Both the position numbers and the translations under genes were made by a program. From positions 62,001 to 126,000 of the forward strand of contig NZ_BBRH01000015.1 of assembly GCF_002090055.1 (NCBI RefSeq): DNA of 64,000 nucleotides, in the 5' to 3' direction. Under the pieces are notes generated by a model, which worked only from the letters and a program-made list of their open reading frames with translations, had not been told where the DNA came from and did not search any database. Below are positions 384 to 51,178 of the stretch, piece after piece (position 1 is the stretch's first letter; each line of letters opens with the position of its first letter). The DNA comes from Demequina sp. NBRC 110051. GTDB lineage: Bacteria > Actinomycetota > Actinomycetes > Actinomycetales > Demequinaceae.

Positions 384-483
384 CGGTTTGGCCCACGCCT
401 GAGACGCGTGAGGCGCGTGTGACAGTTCTCCACTGTCACACGCGCCTCACGCGTCCTACCCGTCACATCCGTGGGCCAAACCG
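384..483. terminator. Large nested hairpin between convergent genes (bidirectional terminator)
   Basis: A perfect 14-bp outer stem (384-397 with 470-483) encloses a perfect 23-bp inner stem (404-426 with 432-454) around a 5-base loop. It sits between the stop of the first gene on the plus strand and the guaA stop on the minus strand. There is no clear T-run. Its 100-bp nested architecture resembles the dispersed 100-bp repeat, but the sequence is different. Confidence 0.8.
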
Positions 484-8779: not shown

Positions 8780-9460
8780 CTACCAGCGGGCGCGCAGGAA
8801 CTCGCGGATCATCAGCACGCCCGCGACGGCGGCCTCATCGGCGTGCGCCGCCGACTGGCCGCGCAGCTCGACCACGTCGATGCCCCGCGCCGCGAGCTCC
8901 ACGCTGTGGCCGATCAGCCAGCGCTCGATGGCCTCGCCGTCGACCTCGGGGTGGAACTGCAAGGCAAGCCCCGAGCCGGCCTCGAAGGCCTGATGGGGTG
9001 TCGCTTCCGTCGACGCGAGCAGCGTCGCCCCCTCGGGCAGGGCGAAGGTGTCCCCGTGCCAATGGAGAACCGGGGCCTCGGCGAGATGGCGCAGCGGCCC
9101 CGCCACGGCATCGGCCGTCAGAGCGACCGGAGCCCAGCCGATCTCGGCCACCCCGGGGCGCACCTCGGCGCCGAGCGCGGCCGCCATGAGCTGCGCTCCC
9201 AGGCACACGCCGATGGTCGCACGGCCAGCCTCGAGGCGGCCGCGAATGAGCGCGATCTCCTCGCTCAGCACGGGGTACGTGGCCACGTCTCCCACGCCCA
9301 CCGGGCCGCCGAGCACGACGGTGAGCTCGGCATCGGCCGCGCCGGCAAGATCGTCGACGCCCGCGTCAAGGTAGGTCACCTCGAATCCGTGCGCGAGGAT
9401 CTCCGCCTCCCACACCCCCAGGTCCTCGAACGCGACATGGCGGACCGCGACGCACCTCAT
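8780..9460 (-). CDS. Class I glutamine amidotransferase
   Basis: The protein has 226 residues and is a stand-alone glutaminase domain of the GuaA/TrpG fold. It has the oxyanion strand VVLGGPVG, the nucleophile elbow IGVCLGAQLMA with the catalytic Cys, and the His/Glu pair in LQFHPEVDGE. Such proteins are often called GMP synthase-like glutamine amidotransferases; the acceptor is unknown. ATG 9460 is chosen because it overlaps the stop of the upstream DUF3054 gene by four bases. One copy of the 14-mer (9103-9116) lies in frame as ADAVAG. Confidence 0.88.
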   Translation of the reverse strand: MRCVAVRHVAFEDLGVWEAEILAHGFEVTYLDAGVDDLAGAADAELTVVLGGPVGVGDVATYPVLSEEIALIRGRLEAGRATIGVCLGAQLMAAALGAEVRPGVAEIGWAPVALTADAVAGPLRHLAEAPVLHWHGDTFALPEGATLLASTEATPHQAFEAGSGLALQFHPEVDGEAIERWLIGHSVELAARGIDVVELRGQSAAHADEAAVAGVLMIREFLRARW

Positions 9461-9882: not shown

Positions 9883-11774
<1,892 letters not shown>

Positions 11775-18691: not shown

Positions 18692-18762
18692 CCCTCGTGG
18701 CGCACATGAGGGCATTTGCGCCACGACACGGGGGTTCGTGGCGGACCTAGGGACACCAGGAG
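18692..18762. repeat. 71-bp intergenic repeat, copy 1
   Basis: This copy matches 22197-22267 without gaps at 53 of 71 positions by hand count. It contains a 10-bp hairpin (18695-18704 with 18717-18726) and ends in caccaggag. A paired 14-mer palindrome follows 8 bases later, as also happens after copy 2. Confidence 0.75.
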
Positions 18763-18770
18763 ACAAGGTC

Positions 18771-18805
18771 AGGGCCGATGCCGTGGTCGCCACGGCATCG
18801 GCCCT
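18771..18805. repeat. Paired 14-mer palindrome, likely terminator of the alcohol dehydrogenase gene
   Basis: A perfect 16-bp stem (18771-18786 with 18790-18805) with a 3-base loop, made of two head-to-head copies of GGCCGATGCCGTGG. It lies just past the stop of the minus-strand alcohol dehydrogenase gene and also faces the end of xfp. Confidence 0.85.
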
Positions 18806-18819
18806 CACCCATTCTGGGG

Positions 18820-19869
18820 TTACGCGTGCGGCACCACGACCGCGCGGCCCAGCACCGAGCCCTCGATGAGCTTGTCGTAGGCCTCGAGTGCCTCATCCAT
18901 CGTGAAACGGGTCACGTCCATCTCGATCTTGCCCGCGCGGTATAGCGCGGCGACCTCGTAGAGGTCCTCGATGGTGCCCCAATAGGTGTTGGTGAGGGTC
19001 GACTCGTACGGGGTCGACATGAAGTTCCACTCGACCGTGCCGTTGGCGATGCCGGCGATCGTGATCGCACCCTGGACGGCGACCACGGCGCGCGAGAGCT
19101 CGATCGTGGGCTTCACGCCCACGAAGTCGAACACGGCGTCGACGCCCTTGCCGCCCGTGATCTCGCGGATCCGCTCGGCCTGACCCTCGCCGCCCTCCAC
19201 GGTGACCGCGCCGCGCTTGGCCGCCATCTCCATGGCGTCCGCCTTGTTGTCGGTGGCGATGACGGTGGCGCCCGTGATGGCCTGCAGGATCTGCACGGCC
19301 ACCTGACCCAGGCCTCCCAGGCCGATGACCAGCGCGTACTTGCCGCCGCCCACCAGCACATGGGCGGAGTTCTTGATCGCGTGATACGGCGTGAGGCCGG
19401 CGTCGGCAAGCGGAGCGGCGGCGACAGGGTCGGCGTCACCCAGCGGCACAAGATTGCGCACGGGCACCGTCATGTACTCGGCCATGCCGCCGTCGCGGCC
19501 CAGGCCGATCGCGGCATAGGGGTTGGTGGCCTGGTTCTCGCAGTACGTGTCCTGTCCGCGCGAGCATGCGCGGCAGTGGCCGCAACCAATGGGCCCATAC
19601 GCCAGGTACGCGTCGCCCACGTTGATGCCGTCGACCCCCTCGCCGAGCTCCTCGACCCAGCCCGACGACTCGTGGCCCAGCGTGAACGGCGGCTGCAGCA
19701 TGCGGCTGATCGGCAGCGACTCGTCGTAGTCCTGAAACACGGACACATCCGAGTGGCAGGCGCCGGCGCCTGCCACCTTCAACAGCACCTCGCCGGGGCC
19801 CGGGACGGGCTTGTCGATGTCTCGCAGCGCGGGTGGGGTGTGCCACGCCTCGAAACGGACAGCCTTCAT
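18820..19869 (-). CDS. Zinc-dependent NAD(P) alcohol dehydrogenase (MDR family)
   Basis: The protein has 349 residues. The catalytic zinc site is GACHSDVSV and GHESSGWV; the structural zinc Cys set is CGHCRACSRGQDTYC; the Rossmann motif is GLGGLGQVAVQ. It should oxidise a primary or secondary alcohol or reduce the aldehyde; the substrate is not known. It stands alone between two 14-mer palindromes, with the hairpin at 18771-18805 after its stop. Confidence 0.92.
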   Translation of the reverse strand: MKAVRFEAWHTPPALRDIDKPVPGPGEVLLKVAGAGACHSDVSVFQDYDESLPISRMLQPPFTLGHESSGWVEELGEGVDGINVGDAYLAYGPIGCGHCRACSRGQDTYCENQATNPYAAIGLGRDGGMAEYMTVPVRNLVPLGDADPVAAAPLADAGLTPYHAIKNSAHVLVGGGKYALVIGLGGLGQVAVQILQAITGATVIATDNKADAMEMAAKRGAVTVEGGEGQAERIREITGGKGVDAVFDFVGVKPTIELSRAVVAVQGAITIAGIANGTVEWNFMSTPYESTLTNTYWGTIEDLYEVAALYRAGKIEMDVTRFTMDEALEAYDKLIEGSVLGRAVVVPHA

Positions 19870-19988
19870 GGTGCATCTCCATTCCCACGATGGCTGCCGC
19901 CAGTGGCCCAGCGCCCCCGGGCGGGCATCGTGGACCTTTCACGTTACCCCTGTCGCGAGCGTCCAGGTTGTGACCGCCGGTCGGGAAC

Positions 19989-20019
19989 GGCCGATGCCGT
20001 GGTGACCACGGCATCGGCC
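19989..20019. repeat. Paired 14-mer palindrome, likely terminator of the ABC exporter operon
   Basis: Two head-to-head copies of GGCCGATGCCGTGG separated by 3 bases (19989-20002 and 20006-20019). The hairpin lies 15 bases past the stop of the minus-strand permease gene. Confidence 0.85.
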
Positions 20020-20034
20020 CTCGCCCCGGGGGGC

Positions 20035-21210
20035 TTACGAGCGCGCGAGCGCGTCCCTGAGCTTCATGCGGCCGCCCGTGTTGAGCACCGCGCCGGCGTA
20101 GACGCGGCCGGCAATCCAGGTCAGTAGCGGGATGGTCGCGAGGCAGATGCCGATCGCGAGGGCGATCTCCCATCCGGCGATGGTGCCGAAGGCAGCACGC
20201 ATGGGCACCATGAACGGCGCGAAGAACGGCACCTGGGTGAGGACCGCGGTCGCCGCACCGTCGGGGTTGTTGGGCACCAGATAGATCGACAGGTACAGCG
20301 GCACCATCATGAGCAGCATCATGGGAGTCGAGACGGCGCCGATGTCCTCTTGACGCGACACGAGCGCCGCGAGCCCGCCAAAGAACACGGTGAAGATCGC
20401 GAAGCCCAGCACGAACCACACGGCGAGGTTGGTCAGCAGCGGCCCCAGCGGAATCTCGAACTGCTCCAAGAGGCCCAGGTACCAGGCGGCGAATACCGCA
20501 GGCACGACCATCGCGGCCGCCTGGACGAGGGCGTAGAGTCCCACGCCCAGCACCTTGCCGCCCAGCAGCGTGGCGGGCCTGACCGTGGCGAGCAGGATCT
20601 CGACCACCCTCGAGGCCTTCTCCTCGACCACGCCCATCATGATCACCGACGAGCTCTGGATGAGCACAAAGAACAGAATGAAGATGACGGCGAAGCCCGC
20701 GAAGAAGGCGCCGGAATCGAAGTCGCCCGCGTCGTCCCCGAGCATCTGAACCGTCGGCACGGCGCCCGCGAGCGCCGTCGCCACCTCGGTCGGATCGCCG
20801 CCCAGGTCCTCGACCGCCGCGCTGAGGGCCGCCTGCTGAGTGGCGACCTGGACGATGCCGGTGAGGGTCTCGTCGCCGCCGTCCAGATAGAGCGTGGGGG
20901 CGTCGGCGGGGCCGACCACCAGCCCCGCGGTGTCCTCGGCGACGGCGGGCTCGGCGGGCGCGTCGATCTCGGCGAACACGTACGCCGCGTCCTGAGCCTC
21001 AGCGGCGGCATCGAGGTACGGCACCAGGTCGCCCGCCGTGGCGGTATCGACCTGCACCGTCGCCGGCTCGTCGTCGCCGGTGAGGAACGGCTTCGCGATG
21101 AGCGAGCCGATCACGATGATCGCGATCATGATGCCCGAGGAGATGAGGCTCGCCTTGGACAGGGTGCGCACGCGGAACTCGCGGCGCGCGATCAGCCACA
21201 CGGTGCTCAC
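20035..21210 (-). CDS. ABC-2 type exporter permease (NatB-like)
   Basis: The protein has 391 residues. An N-terminal membrane segment follows TVWLIARREFRVRTLSKASL, a typical NatB-like opening. A large extracytoplasmic loop (about residues 45-220) comes next, and then five or six membrane segments beginning at GFAVIFILFFVLIQSSSVIM with VEEKASRVVEILLATVRP. GTG 21210 overlaps the stop of the ATPase gene (GTGA), so the two subunits are coupled. The substrate is unknown; NatAB relatives export sodium or drugs. Confidence 0.88.
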   Translation of the reverse strand: MSTVWLIARREFRVRTLSKASLISSGIMIAIIVIGSLIAKPFLTGDDEPATVQVDTATAGDLVPYLDAAAEAQDAAYVFAEIDAPAEPAVAEDTAGLVVGPADAPTLYLDGGDETLTGIVQVATQQAALSAAVEDLGGDPTEVATALAGAVPTVQMLGDDAGDFDSGAFFAGFAVIFILFFVLIQSSSVIMMGVVEEKASRVVEILLATVRPATLLGGKVLGVGLYALVQAAAMVVPAVFAAWYLGLLEQFEIPLGPLLTNLAVWFVLGFAIFTVFFGGLAALVSRQEDIGAVSTPMMLLMMVPLYLSIYLVPNNPDGAATAVLTQVPFFAPFMVPMRAAFGTIAGWEIALAIGICLATIPLLTWIAGRVYAGAVLNTGGRMKLRDALARS

Positions 21211-22106
21211 GCGGACACCTCCTCGGACACGACGCCCTGGAACAGCTCGCTCAGTGTGGGGCGCACCTCGGCGAACGACGTCACCGTGCCGGCCTTCACG
21301 GCCGATGCGAGGGCCGCCTGGGCGGCCGCTGCGTCGGCGGCCTCCACTCGCCACACTCCTGGGCTGGCCTCGGTGACCGAGCCGGCCACGGCATCGGCCC
21401 ATCCAGCCGGAAGGCTGCCCGTCAGCTCCCACACGGGACGCTCGGTGGCGCGCAGCTCGTCGATAGTGCCCTGCGCGACCATCCGGCCGGCGCGGACGAT
21501 GCCCACGCGGTCGCACAGCCGCTCGACCAGCTCGAGCTGGTGCGACGAGAAGATCACCGGCACGCCGCGCGCTGCCTGCTCGCGCAGCACGCCGCTCATC
21601 ACCTCGACGGCGACGGGGTCGAGGCCGGAGAACGGCTCGTCGAGGACGAGCACCTCGGGGCCGTGGACCAGCGCGGAGGCGAGCTGCACGCGTTGCTGGT
21701 TTCCCAGCGACAGCTTCTCGACCTCGGTGTCGCGGCGCTCGGCCACCCCTAAGACCTCGGTCCAGTGCTCCATGGCTGCGGCAGCGTCGGCGGCGCTGAG
21801 TCCGTGCAGTCGTGCCAGGTAGATCAGCTGCTCGCCCACCTTCATGCGCGGGTAGAGGCCGCGCTCCTCTGGCATGTAGCCGATGCGGCGGCGCGCCTCG
21901 AGGTCGAGCGGCGCCTCGTTCCAGGTGACGGTGCCGGCGTCGGCTCGCAGCACGCCCAGGATGATCCGCATCGTGGTGGTCTTGCCCGCGCCGTTGGAGC
22001 CGACGAAGCCGAAGAGCTCACCGCCGCGCACCGTGAACGACACGTCGTCGAGCGCCCTGAGCTCGCCGTAGGACTTGGTCAGGTGGTCGATACGTAGGTC
22101 CGGCAC
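21207..22106 (-). CDS. ABC transporter ATPase (NatA-like)
   Basis: The protein has 299 residues with one ABC domain: Walker A GSNGAGKTT, signature LSLGNQQRV (a G-to-N variant of the usual LSGGQ, common in NatA relatives) and Walker B VLVLDEPFSGLDP. A C-terminal regulatory part follows and contains an in-frame 14-mer copy (21386-21399, read as ADAVAG). It pairs with the downstream permease. Confidence 0.92.
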   Translation of the reverse strand: MPDLRIDHLTKSYGELRALDDVSFTVRGGELFGFVGSNGAGKTTTMRIILGVLRADAGTVTWNEAPLDLEARRRIGYMPEERGLYPRMKVGEQLIYLARLHGLSAADAAAAMEHWTEVLGVAERRDTEVEKLSLGNQQRVQLASALVHGPEVLVLDEPFSGLDPVAVEVMSGVLREQAARGVPVIFSSHQLELVERLCDRVGIVRAGRMVAQGTIDELRATERPVWELTGSLPAGWADAVAGSVTEASPGVWRVEAADAAAAQAALASAVKAGTVTSFAEVRPTLSELFQGVVSEEVSA

Positions 22107-22196
22107 GCACGTCTCCTGGTCGATGAGGGGGACCAGCCGAGCCTAACCAGGAGCGACGCCGCGCGTCGTCATCCGCGCGAACGACCTGCTCCCCCT

Positions 22197-22267
22197 CCCC
22201 CCTGGCGCAAATGTGGACATGCGCGCCACAAAACGCCGTCTCGTGGCGCGCATCGGGCCACCAGGAG
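22197..22267. repeat. 71-bp intergenic repeat, copy 2
   Basis: A partner of 18692-18762, ungapped, about 75% identical. It lies between the ABC ATPase start and the guaB3 stop, and is again followed by a paired 14-mer palindrome. Confidence 0.75.
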
Positions 22268-22293
22268 CAAGCGGAGCGCCCATCCAAAGGAAA

Positions 22294-22327
22294 GGGCCGA
22301 TGCCGTGGTCACCCACGGCATCGGCCC
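22294..22327. repeat. Paired 14-mer palindrome, likely terminator of guaB3
   Basis: A perfect 15-bp stem (22294-22308 with 22313-22327) with a 4-base loop, made of two 14-mer copies head to head. It ends 16 bases from the guaB3 stop on the minus strand. Confidence 0.85.
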
Positions 22328-22343: not shown

Positions 22344-23468
22344 TCAGCTGGGGTGGTACGGCGAGACCACCACGTCGATGCGCTGGAACTCCTTGAGGTC
22401 CGAGTAGCCCGTGGTGGCCATCGAGCGGCGCAGGGCCCCCATGATGTTGGTGGTGCCGTCGGCGAGGTGGCCGGGGCCGTGGAGGATCTCCTCGAGCGGG
22501 GCGACGGTGCCGACCTCGACGCGCTCGCCGCGCGGCAGCTCGGCGTGGTACGCCTCCTGGCCCCAGTGGTAGCCGCGGCCCGGGGCCTCCTCCGAGCGGG
22601 CCAGCGCGGAGCCGAGCATGACGGCGTCGGCACCACACGCGAAGGCCTTCACGAGGTCGCCCGACCGGCCCAGGCCGCCGTCGGCGATGACGTGCACGTA
22701 GCGGCCGCCGGACTCGTCGAGGTAGTCGCGGCGGGCGGCGGCGACGTCGGACACGGCGGTCGCCATGGGGGCGTGAATACCCAGCGTGGCGCGCGTGCGC
22801 TGCGCCGAGCCACCGCCGAAGCCCACGAGCACGCCCGCGGCACCGGTGCGCATGAGGTGAAGTCCGGCCTGGTAGGTCGAGGCGCCGCCGACGATGACGG
22901 GCACGTCCAGGTCGTAGATGAACTTCTTGAGGTTGAGCGGCTCCACCTCGGGCGAGACGTGTTCGGCGGACACGGTGGTGCCGCGGATAACGAACAGGTC
23001 GACGCCGGCCTTCAGGACCGTCTCGTAGTGCTCCTGCGTGCGCTGAGGGCTGAGCGCGCCGGCCACGGTGACGTCGGCCGCACGGATCTCACGCAGGCGC
23101 TCGGCGATCAGCTCGCCCTTGACCGGCTCGCGGTAGATCTCCTGCATGCGCGCGGTCGCGGCGACGCCATCGAGCGCGGCGATCTCCTCGAGCAGCGAGG
23201 TGGGGTCCTCGTAACGCGTCCACAGGCCCTCGAGGTCCAGCACCCCGAGCCCGCCCAGGCGACCCAACGCGATCGCGGTCGCGGGGCTCATCACGGAGTC
23301 CATGGGCGCGGCGATCACGGGGATGTCGAACTGGAAGGCATCGATCTGCCAACTCAGCGACACCTGCTGCGGGTCGCGCGTGCGGCGCGAGGGCACCACG
23401 GCGATGTCGTCGAAGGAGTAGGCACGGCGTCCGCGCTTGCCGCGGCCGATCTCGGTCTCGTAACTCAC
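22344..23468 (-). CDS. guaB3: GuaB3-family IMP dehydrogenase-related protein
   Basis: The protein has 374 residues: a TIM barrel like that of IMP dehydrogenase but without CBS domains. It has the phosphate-binding region VIADGGLGRSGDLVKAFACG and the N-terminal FDIPVIAAPMDSVMSP. The loop that holds the catalytic Cys in IMP dehydrogenase (GSICTTR) reads GSAQRTR here, so the nucleophile is missing and normal IMP dehydrogenase activity is unlikely. Some GuaB3 proteins have been reported to act on GMP. GTG 23468 lies 6 bases after a TAGGCT hexamer, suggesting a leaderless transcript. Confidence 0.9.
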   Translation of the reverse strand: MSYETEIGRGKRGRRAYSFDDIAVVPSRRTRDPQQVSLSWQIDAFQFDIPVIAAPMDSVMSPATAIALGRLGGLGVLDLEGLWTRYEDPTSLLEEIAALDGVAATARMQEIYREPVKGELIAERLREIRAADVTVAGALSPQRTQEHYETVLKAGVDLFVIRGTTVSAEHVSPEVEPLNLKKFIYDLDVPVIVGGASTYQAGLHLMRTGAAGVLVGFGGGSAQRTRATLGIHAPMATAVSDVAAARRDYLDESGGRYVHVIADGGLGRSGDLVKAFACGADAVMLGSALARSEEAPGRGYHWGQEAYHAELPRGERVEVGTVAPLEEILHGPGHLADGTTNIMGALRRSMATTGYSDLKEFQRIDVVVSPYHPS

Positions 23469-23512: not shown

Positions 23513-23526
23513 GGCCGATGCCGTGG
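23513..23526 (+). repeat. 14-mer GGCCGATGCCGTGG in the guaB3/exonuclease spacer
   Basis: A single exact copy between two divergent genes. Confidence 0.8.
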
Positions 23527-28696: not shown

Positions 28697-28710
28697 CCAC
28701 GGCATCGGCC
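28697..28710 (-). repeat. 14-mer (minus orientation) after whiB
   Basis: An exact copy 12 bases past the whiB stop, unpaired. Confidence 0.8.
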
Positions 28711-29279: not shown

Positions 29280-30455
29280 ATGGACGCCGTGACCGCCCGC
29301 CTGCTGCTCACGCCCGACGGCCTCGCGCTCGTGGACGCCCTGCCACCGTACGACGAGAAGCGCTCCCTCGCGATGGGCGAATCCATGCGCGCCCAGGGCG
29401 TGGACCCGAGGCTCGTGGCGGCGGCGCTCACCCAGTCGCGGCTGAGGGCCGATGCCGTGGGCAAGCTGGGGGACTTCGCCGGCGGCATGCTACTCACCCA
29501 GGACGGGTTGGAGCAGGCGACCCGGCTCACCGTGGCGGCGCGCCATGCGGCGCGCTATCGCGACGCCGGGGTGACGTCCGTGGCGGACCTCACCGCCGGG
29601 ATCGGGGCCGATGCCATGGCGCTCGCCGCGCTCGGCCTCGACGTGACGGCGATCGAGCGTGATGAGGCGACCGCGCTGCTGGCCGATCACAACCTGCGCC
29701 ACTGGGCGTCGGCGCGGGTGGTGCACGGGGACTCGATGTCGCTCGCTGCATCGCTCGACGTGGACGGACTCTTCGCGGACCCCGCCCGCCGCACCGCACG
29801 CGGGCGCCGGCACGACCCCCAGGACTACTCCCCCGCGCTCGACGACGTGCTGGCGCTGCGCTCATCACACCCGGCGCTGGGCGTGAAGGTGGGGCCGGCG
29901 ATTCCTCACGAGGCGATCCCGGCCGATGCCGAGGCCGAGTGGGTCTCCGTCGACGGCTCGGTGGTGGAGGCGGCCCTGTGGCACGGGCCGCTCGCGACCG
30001 CGCCTGGGCACGCCGCGCTCGTGGTACGAGGGGACACGGCGCATCGCCTGACGGGCTCGACGGACCGCGCCGATGCGGGTGAGTTGACTGACTATCTCTA
30101 CGAACCCGATGGCGCGGTCATCCGTGCGGGACTGGTGGGCGAGGTCGCCGCGCGCTTGGACGGCCACCTGGTGGACCCGATGATCGCGTACATCGCCGCG
30201 CCCACGCCGGTCGAGACCCCCTTCGCACGCGGGTACCAGGTGCTCGAGACCGTCCCGCTCAAGCCCAAGGCTCTCGCCGCTGCACTGCGTGCGCGCGGCG
30301 TCGGCACGGTCGATATCAAGAAGCGGGGCGTCGACATCACGCCCGAGCAGCTGCGTCCTCACCTGAAGCTCAAGGGCGACGAGCGTCTCACAGTCATCCT
30401 CACACGCATGGGCAACCGCCGGCTCGCGATCCTCGCCGAGCCGCTACCCGCCTGA
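29280..30455 (+). CDS. Class I SAM methyltransferase with C-terminal THUMP-like domain
   Basis: The protein has 391 residues. A helical N-terminal part is followed by the SAM-binding motif VADLTAGIGADAMALAALG, the acidic end of motif II (AIERDE), and FADPARRTARGRR, resembling the DPPR/DPAR catalytic loop of nucleic acid methyltransferases. The C-terminal end (KPKALAAALRARGVGTVDIK, KRGVDITPEQLR) is the THUMP-like domain. An RNA substrate is likely but unproven. ATG 29280 lies 6 bases after GAGGAT. Its start lies close to CIRCE but on the opposite strand from groES. Confidence 0.85.
   Translation: MDAVTARLLLTPDGLALVDALPPYDEKRSLAMGESMRAQGVDPRLVAAALTQSRLRADAVGKLGDFAGGMLLTQDGLEQATRLTVAARHAARYRDAGVTSVADLTAGIGADAMALAALGLDVTAIERDEATALLADHNLRHWASARVVHGDSMSLAASLDVDGLFADPARRTARGRRHDPQDYSPALDDVLALRSSHPALGVKVGPAIPHEAIPADAEAEWVSVDGSVVEAALWHGPLATAPGHAALVVRGDTAHRLTGSTDRADAGELTDYLYEPDGAVIRAGLVGEVAARLDGHLVDPMIAYIAAPTPVETPFARGYQVLETVPLKPKALAAALRARGVGTVDIKKRGVDITPEQLRPHLKLKGDERLTVILTRMGNRRLAILAEPLPA
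29447..29460 (+). repeat. 14-mer GGCCGATGCCGTGG in the methyltransferase gene
   Basis: An exact copy read in frame as ADAVG in the N-terminal helical part of the protein. Confidence 0.8.
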
Positions 30456-33635: not shown

Positions 33636-33649
33636 GGCCGATGCCGTGG
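33636..33649 (+). repeat. 14-mer GGCCGATGCCGTGG in the tsaD spacer
   Basis: A single exact copy in the spacer between the divergent tsaD and RutE-like genes. Confidence 0.8.
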
Positions 33650-43447: not shown

Positions 43448-43461
43448 GGCCGATGCCGTGG
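43448..43461 (+). repeat. 14-mer GGCCGATGCCGTGG next to the IS and methyltransferase stop
   Basis: An exact copy immediately after the minus-strand methyltransferase stop; before the IS insertion it also followed coaA. Confidence 0.8.
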
Positions 43462-47834: not shown

Positions 47835-48527
47835 GTGACGTCCACGCGATCCCTGCTTGTCCTCCATGTCAGTGACGAGCGTCCCCACGCGCCGGGCTAT
47901 CAGCGGCTCCTCGACGAGCTCAACCGAGCGACCCTGGCCGGCGTGAGGGCGGCCGGCTGGGAGCCGACGCTGGTAGCGACGGATACGGCCGATGTCGACG
48001 AGGTCCTCACCCTCGCCCGGACGGCCGATGCCGTGGTCATCATGGGCGGCGAGGACGTCACCCCGGCGCTGTACGGCGGGGCCGAAGAGTATCCCGATGG
48101 CGGGCATCATGTGCCGCACTCCGACGACGTGCTGCTGGCGGTCATCCGCGACGCGATCGCACGCCGCTCTCCCCTGCTGGGCATCTGTCGGGGCCAGCAG
48201 CTGCTCAACGTCGCGTGCGGGGGCACCCTGGTGCAGCACATGGAGGGCCACCGTCTCACCGGCGACCAGGTGTGGGTGCGCACGCGCCTGAGCGAGGACG
48301 CGGCGCTCTCCCCCGGCGCACACGTCTGGTGCACTCACCATCAGGCGGTCGCAGAGGTCGGCAAGAACCTCACCGTGGTAGCCCGTGCCGCCGATGGTGT
48401 GATCGAGGCCCTCGCCCACGATCACGCTCCGGTCCTCGGCGTGCAGTGGCACCCCGAGCATCCAGCCGTCGCGGCGGTCGAGGTCCCCGCGCTGCTCGCG
48501 CGGGTGACGGAGAAGGTTCCCGCCTAG
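47835..48527 (+). CDS. Peptidase C26 family gamma-glutamyl hydrolase (PuuD-like)
   Basis: The protein has 230 residues with a class I glutamine amidotransferase-like fold. The catalytic Cys is in LLGICRGQQLLNVACGG and the His/Glu pair is in GVQWHPEHP. Relatives cleave gamma-glutamyl-GABA or similar conjugates in polyamine breakdown; no other puu genes are nearby. A ggagg site precedes GTG 47835. One in-frame 14-mer (48023-48036) is read as ADAVV. The stop overlaps the truA stop by four bases. Confidence 0.88.
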   Translation: MTSTRSLLVLHVSDERPHAPGYQRLLDELNRATLAGVRAAGWEPTLVATDTADVDEVLTLARTADAVVIMGGEDVTPALYGGAEEYPDGGHHVPHSDDVLLAVIRDAIARRSPLLGICRGQQLLNVACGGTLVQHMEGHRLTGDQVWVRTRLSEDAALSPGAHVWCTHHQAVAEVGKNLTVVARAADGVIEALAHDHAPVLGVQWHPEHPAVAAVEVPALLARVTEKVPA

Positions 48528-51112: not shown

Positions 51113-51178
51113 GGCCGATGCCGTGGGCACCGGCCGCCTCCAAGGAGGCGGGGTCGCGAGGCGGGCTTCGTAGCCCGC
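51113..51178. other. Spacer hairpins between rpsK and rpoA
   Basis: The 183-base gap holds one 14-mer (51113-51126), a 7-bp hairpin ccgcctc/gaggcgg (51134-51151) and a 7-bp hairpin gcgggct/agcccgc (51161-51178). They could attenuate or process the transcript before rpoA; no promoter was recognised. Confidence 0.5.

Follow-up and report, generated by a model that had tools for sequence, protein, structure and literature searches.

A candidate DNA uptake word in Demequina and the putative terminator hairpins formed by its facing copies

The DNA uptake sequences (DUS) of the Neisseriaceae, such as ATGCCGTCTGAA, occur as many strand-neutral copies inside and between genes, in dialects around a fixed core, and inverted pairs of them are positioned at transcription terminators (PMC2397512, PMC3630211). 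A conserved CTG core is required (PMC3630211), and ComP, the receptor for DUS, is electropositive on its surface (PMC4906244). The uptake signal sequences (USS) of the Pasteurellaceae, AAGTGCGGT or ACAAGCGGT, consist of a 9-base core with a weaker extended flank and recur once per kilobase or two; 65% of them lie in open reading frames (ORFs), compared with a coding share of 86% (PMC2346458). Here we describe a 14-nucleotide word, GGCCGATGCCGTGG, from a 64,000-nucleotide stretch of the Demequina sp. NBRC 110051 genome (NZ_BBRH01000015.1, positions 62,001 to 126,000; hereafter the window). We regard it as fairly likely that the core of this word, GGCCGATGC, together with a species-specific tail, is a DNA-uptake-signal-like word of Demequina whose facing copies serve as terminators.

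The word shares with DUS its many strand-neutral intragenic and intergenic copies, its dialects around a fixed core, and the placement of inverted pairs at apparent terminators. It differs in that neither GGCCGATGCCGTGG nor its complement contains CTG, and in belonging to a Gram-positive phylum. Its 9-base core, spacing, and weaker flank resemble those of USS, as does its relative scarcity in ORFs, which hold 60% of the 14-mers and 78% of the cores compared with a coding share of 88%. However, its core matches neither USS sequence, and the Demequina flank is rich in G+C. Because the word does not fit the sequence that defines either family, it is a member of neither. If the uptake reading is right, it would work as they do.

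Copy counts given here are for the whole 2.75-Mb draft genome that holds the window (G000; other G numbers denote relatives), and positional statistics come from 744 kb of its stretches, a 27% sample in which genes were called with our own simple codon-usage caller rather than taken from curated annotation. There are 444 copies of GGCCGATGCCGTGG in the genome (239 and 205 by strand), compared with a single copy of its letter-reversed control. The sample contains 125 copies where a third-order Markov model predicts 0.14, an 890-fold excess, and these figures reject chance or base composition as the source of the word. Positions 10-12 are where most of the tolerated single-base changes fall, which leaves the 9-base GGCCGATGC as the hard core. 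This core is present 1687 times in G000, or about once per 1.6 kb. In this genome the core is followed by the tail CGTGG and then by a weaker flank of roughly YCGGC; in some copies CGTACG stands at a constant distance from the core.

Core counts range from 68 to 2018 among 44 Demequina genomes and are mostly near background in the 297 genomes sampled from other genera of the order. Across 19 word-rich genomes the two strands carry 10848 and 10753 cores, equal within 1%. Species vary in the bases that follow the core, which are CGTGG in G000 and G029, a mixture of C and G in G031, T or C and then GGG in G005, C and then GG in G007, and G in the group formed by G001, G002, G016, G027, and G030. 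The word-poor G004 shows no enrichment of bases after the core, and no clear alternative word was found in 140 kb of its sequence. In a guaB3 tree of 30 species the word-rich species are distributed over three supported groups, and the word-poor species belong to a fourth, which they share with intermediate ones.

In the window, the first-pass annotation had reported three head-to-head pairs of the 14-mer, each 15-16 bases past the stop of a minus-strand gene for an alcohol dehydrogenase, an ABC permease, or guaB3. All three pairs are present at those places as exact copies of GGCCGATGCCGTGG, each past a minus-strand stop, and Pfam domain matches agree with the gene identities; the distance holds for the first two pairs, and the third lies slightly farther away. 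Pair 1 (18773-18786 on the plus strand facing 18790-18803 on the minus strand, with a 3-base loop; site 18773-18803, minus strand) is located 16 bases past the stop of a zinc-dependent alcohol dehydrogenase gene (18820-19869, minus strand; PF08240, PF00107) and also 92 bases past a convergent phosphoketolase gene. Pair 2 (19989-20002 on the plus strand and 20006-20019 on the minus strand, loop of 3; site 19989-20019, minus strand) follows the stop of an ABC-2 family permease gene (20035-21210, minus strand; PF12698) by 15 bases. Pair 3 (22295-22308 on the plus strand and 22313-22326 on the minus strand, loop of 4; site 22295-22326, minus strand) lies 17 bases beyond the stop of guaB3, which codes for a protein of the inosine monophosphate dehydrogenase (IMPDH) family (22344-23468, minus strand; PF00478). 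On the mRNA strand the three hairpins have predicted folding energies of -43, -36, and -38 kcal/mol, respectively, and none of them has a match in Rfam. The guaB3 hairpin is the same in G029 and appears in G031 as a compensated GGTGG/CCACC variant. A small palindromic motif resembling TGGCGCAAATG...CATTTGCGCCA is found immediately past two of these hairpins (18692-18740 and 22200-22260) and at two further places in the sample.

A strong stem-loop 15-17 bases past a stop is also characteristic of those intrinsic terminators of G+C-rich bacteria that lack a U-tract, and the word-poor G010, G015, and G020 likewise have ordinary, word-free hairpins at the orthologous guaB3 site. Unlike such terminators, the Demequina hairpins have a stem that consists of two copies of a word found throughout the genome. 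The facing copies probably form hairpins that end transcripts, and we infer termination from their position, their stability, and the Neisseria precedent (PMC2397512).

The first-pass annotation had also raised the question of whether paired copies are enriched within 50 bases after stop codons. This is the case in the sample, where a stop is no more than 25 bp away from 12 of the 13 intergenic head-to-head core pairs, compared with 10% for random positions in non-coding DNA (P = 1.2e-11). Of 20 pairs in G005 and G007, 15 have a stop at a distance of 50 bp or less. Counted genome-wide, head-to-head pairs are more numerous than tail-to-tail ones in G000 (36 versus 13) and G007 (27 versus 6), but not in every species, as shown by G001 (7 versus 12). 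Within a pair, the inner five bases of the two arms match at 80% of positions, compared with 70% when partners are swapped within a genome (P < 0.0004). A long form of the pair, 48-50 nucleotides with CGTACG at its center, recurs in several species. It is seen in L027 of G000 (C6:207991-208040 and 219156-219205) and among G005 and G007 pairs in L183, L185, L193, and L194. Some copies that are not paired likewise have CGTACG at a fixed position, +13 relative to the core.

These observations lead us to the following model. The word would have accumulated mostly by point substitution and would mark the core DNA of a species for preferred binding or uptake by its competence and type IV pilus machinery. 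Where two facing copies follow a gene, they and the complementary inner stem would fold into a hairpin that ends the transcript, as paired DUS do in Neisseria. Uptake as the driving force, a receptor for the word, and termination at the hairpins are postulated here, whereas abundance, symmetry, dialects, selection within genes, hairpin placement, and covariation are read from the sequences. The combination of DUS- and USS-like abundance, strand symmetry, dialects, tolerant reading frames, origin by substitution, and paired terminators fits the profile of an uptake word.

Genes for competence and pilus machinery are widespread. All 43 good genomes of the family encode ComEC, comEA adjoins comEC in G000, and a pilus ATPase is present in all genomes searched. 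The type IV pilus operon, detailed in G000 and G004, includes pilB, pilC, pilins, pilD, and pilM; in G000 it lies at L143 8228-20000 (contig C10) with pilT and a pilN-like gene in addition. Further T2SSE ATPases are encoded elsewhere in the genome, which suggests that Flp/Tad systems are present as well. The natural transformation of Micrococcus luteus (ComEA, ComEC, and Flp pili) offers a parallel, given that Demequina has both comEA and comEC; the passages of PMC8467076 and PMC6370729 on M. luteus mention no uptake word. A stand-alone type IV pilin gene (L036 4697-5131; G000:C7:44697-45131) has orthologs across Demequina. Its product has a conserved two-cysteine C-terminal part, and the group of G000, G029, and G031 has a pilin variant of its own.

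Several observations temper our enthusiasm for the uptake model. We know of no experiment showing that any Demequina is naturally transformable or prefers the word. The stand-alone pilin of every species is acidic, with a net charge between -2 and -17, unlike the electropositive ComP. The word-poor G004, G019, G024, G028, and G034 retain comEC, the pilus operon, and the stand-alone pilin, and thus the machinery does not track word abundance. Cores are spaced no more evenly than random positions (coefficient of variation 1.14), and no run of T nucleotides follows any of the three stems in the window on the coding strand. In addition, any strand-neutral DNA-binding factor with a drifting specificity could produce much of the same genomic picture. 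The presence of competence and pilus genes fails as an explanation of word abundance, as nearly all genomes have them. We do not propose the stand-alone pilin as the receptor because it is acidic and present in word-poor species. The idea of the first-pass annotation that an actinobacterium has convergently adopted an uptake-like word for its terminators is favored by the post-stop position of the pairs, their covarying stems, the hyperabundance and strand symmetry of the word, the intragenic copies made by substitution, the dialects, and the presence of competence and pilus genes, whereas the word may have a different role, given that word-poor relatives possess this machinery too.

The main rival is that the word is a strand-neutral site for a chromosome-organizing, repair, or recombination protein, serving for example in nucleoid organization, segregation, or as a recombination hotspot, and that terminators borrowed it. 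Such a site would be expected to show the same hyperabundance and conservation, and the competence machinery does not track the word. Chi-like sites and those resembling KOPS (FtsK-orienting polar sequences) are strand-biased. In contrast, the near equality of strands noted above holds here and local windows show no consistent bias, although replichores are not assigned in the draft, and opposite biases on the two sides of the origin could offset each other. Site density, tolerant frames, dialects, and paired terminators also match DUS and USS closely, and we know of no chromosome or repair factor for such a word. We consider this explanation rather unlikely, albeit the strongest of the alternatives to uptake.

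A second alternative is that the word is solely a terminator or other regulatory element. This would account for the clustering of head-to-head pairs past stops, for their covariation, and for the finding that 42% of the single cores between genes have a stop no more than 30 bp away. However, most copies in the sample are intragenic (349 of the 450 cores and 75 of the 125 exact 14-mers), on both strands and mostly unpaired, and only 16 of 212 strong post-stop hairpins (about 8%) carry the core in both arms. A role restricted to termination or regulation is therefore very doubtful.

The intragenic copies are also informative about how the word arises. G029 aligns to G000 with 88% identity, and because intergenic alignments of the two contain many gaps, the question of insertion was judged on intragenic cores only. 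Core 9-mers are identical in G029 in 83% of cases, compared with 39% for nearby 9-mers. Synonymous codons within cores are kept in G029 (90% versus 63%, P = 0.001) and in G007 (87% versus 46%, P = 0.002), but at a rate of only 8% in the word-poor G004. Together with the codon use described below, this pattern shows that selection on the word inside genes acts at the DNA level. The differences between G000 and G029 at intragenic cores are substitutions, with gaps at 0 of 30 aligned cores. Given this absence of gaps and the conservation described above, most copies arose through point mutation and have persisted where related species also use the word. The same data bear on whether the copies are relics of a small, palindromic mobile element of the repetitive extragenic palindrome (REP) or miniature inverted-repeat transposable element (MITE) type. 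The inverted intergenic pairs and the recurring long form with its CGTACG center are reminiscent of such elements, but origin by substitution and inner stems that vary freely around a constant 9-mer make this proposal even harder to credit than a purely terminator role.

Nearly all intragenic 14-mers fall in two tolerant frames that use non-preferred codons, with 46 of the 75 in the sample read as Ala-Asp-Ala-Val (ADAV) and 28 as Thr-Ala-Ser-Ala (TASA). ADAV peptides number 94 where 25.5 are expected. The exact word codons are used in 57 of these 94 (1.5 expected, or about 37-fold over codon usage) and in 30 of 45 TASA peptides (0.2 expected, over 100-fold). The restriction to two frames is what a codon or amino acid bias toward Ala-Asp-Ala-Val in a G+C-rich genome would predict, yet that explanation is refuted, and retains almost no credibility, in view of the word-codon excess, the use of GAT (only 15% of Asp codons), and an intergenic density even higher than the intragenic one.

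The window contains 18 exact copies of GGCCGATGCCGTGG in total. Among the single copies, those at 9103-9116 (minus strand), 11492-11505 (minus strand), and 29447-29460 (plus strand) are intragenic and kept in G029, and the intragenic copy at 10227-10240 (plus strand) is kept in both G029 and G031. A copy at 21386-21399 (minus strand), within an ABC ATPase gene (21207-22106), is likewise kept in G029. The intragenic copies at 2472-2485 and 48023-48036 (both plus strand) each differ from G029 by one base, the former without an insertion or deletion and the latter by a substitution. Outside of genes, the copies at 23513-23526 (plus strand), between two gene starts, and at 51113-51126 (plus strand, intergenic) are kept in G029. 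Another intergenic copy lies 12 bases past a stop (28697-28710, minus strand), one is found at 33636-33649 (plus strand), and a copy at 43448-43461 (plus strand) adjoins a stop codon.

No core is present between 60000 and 64000 of the window, where about 2.5 would be expected at the genome density. Elsewhere in the sample, two low-GC islands of glycosyltransferase and wall-glycan genes (L024 1503-15000 and L049 2500-15000) are nearly word-free, with 2 cores per 20 kb compared with about 12, as expected of recently acquired DNA. The L024 island adjoins an HTH_38/rve transposase-like gene. A separate sequence, GTGGGCCAAACC(GAT), has about 17 intergenic copies in the sample where about 0.1 are expected. 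Two of these are located in the window on opposite strands about 75 bp apart (385-396, minus strand, and 471-482, plus strand), and the sequence is possibly a regulator site.

Uptake words have been described as unique to Neisseria and the Pasteurellaceae (PMC3630211), and until now such self-recognition tags were known only from these two Gram-negative families. In the open literature searched, we found no earlier report of the word itself or of any uptake sequence in Demequina or other actinobacteria. With slightly less assurance than for the word itself, we lean toward a third, independent origin of DNA-uptake self-recognition, this one in a Gram-positive actinobacterial genus, with dialects, paired terminators, and gain or loss of the word despite constant machinery. 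If this is true, then paired-word terminators arise repeatedly, and word-rich Demequina species are predicted to be naturally transformable. The graded series from word-rich to word-poor species would then allow tests of receptor preference with molecular drive, on the one hand, versus selection for exchange with kin, on the other, as the origin of such words.

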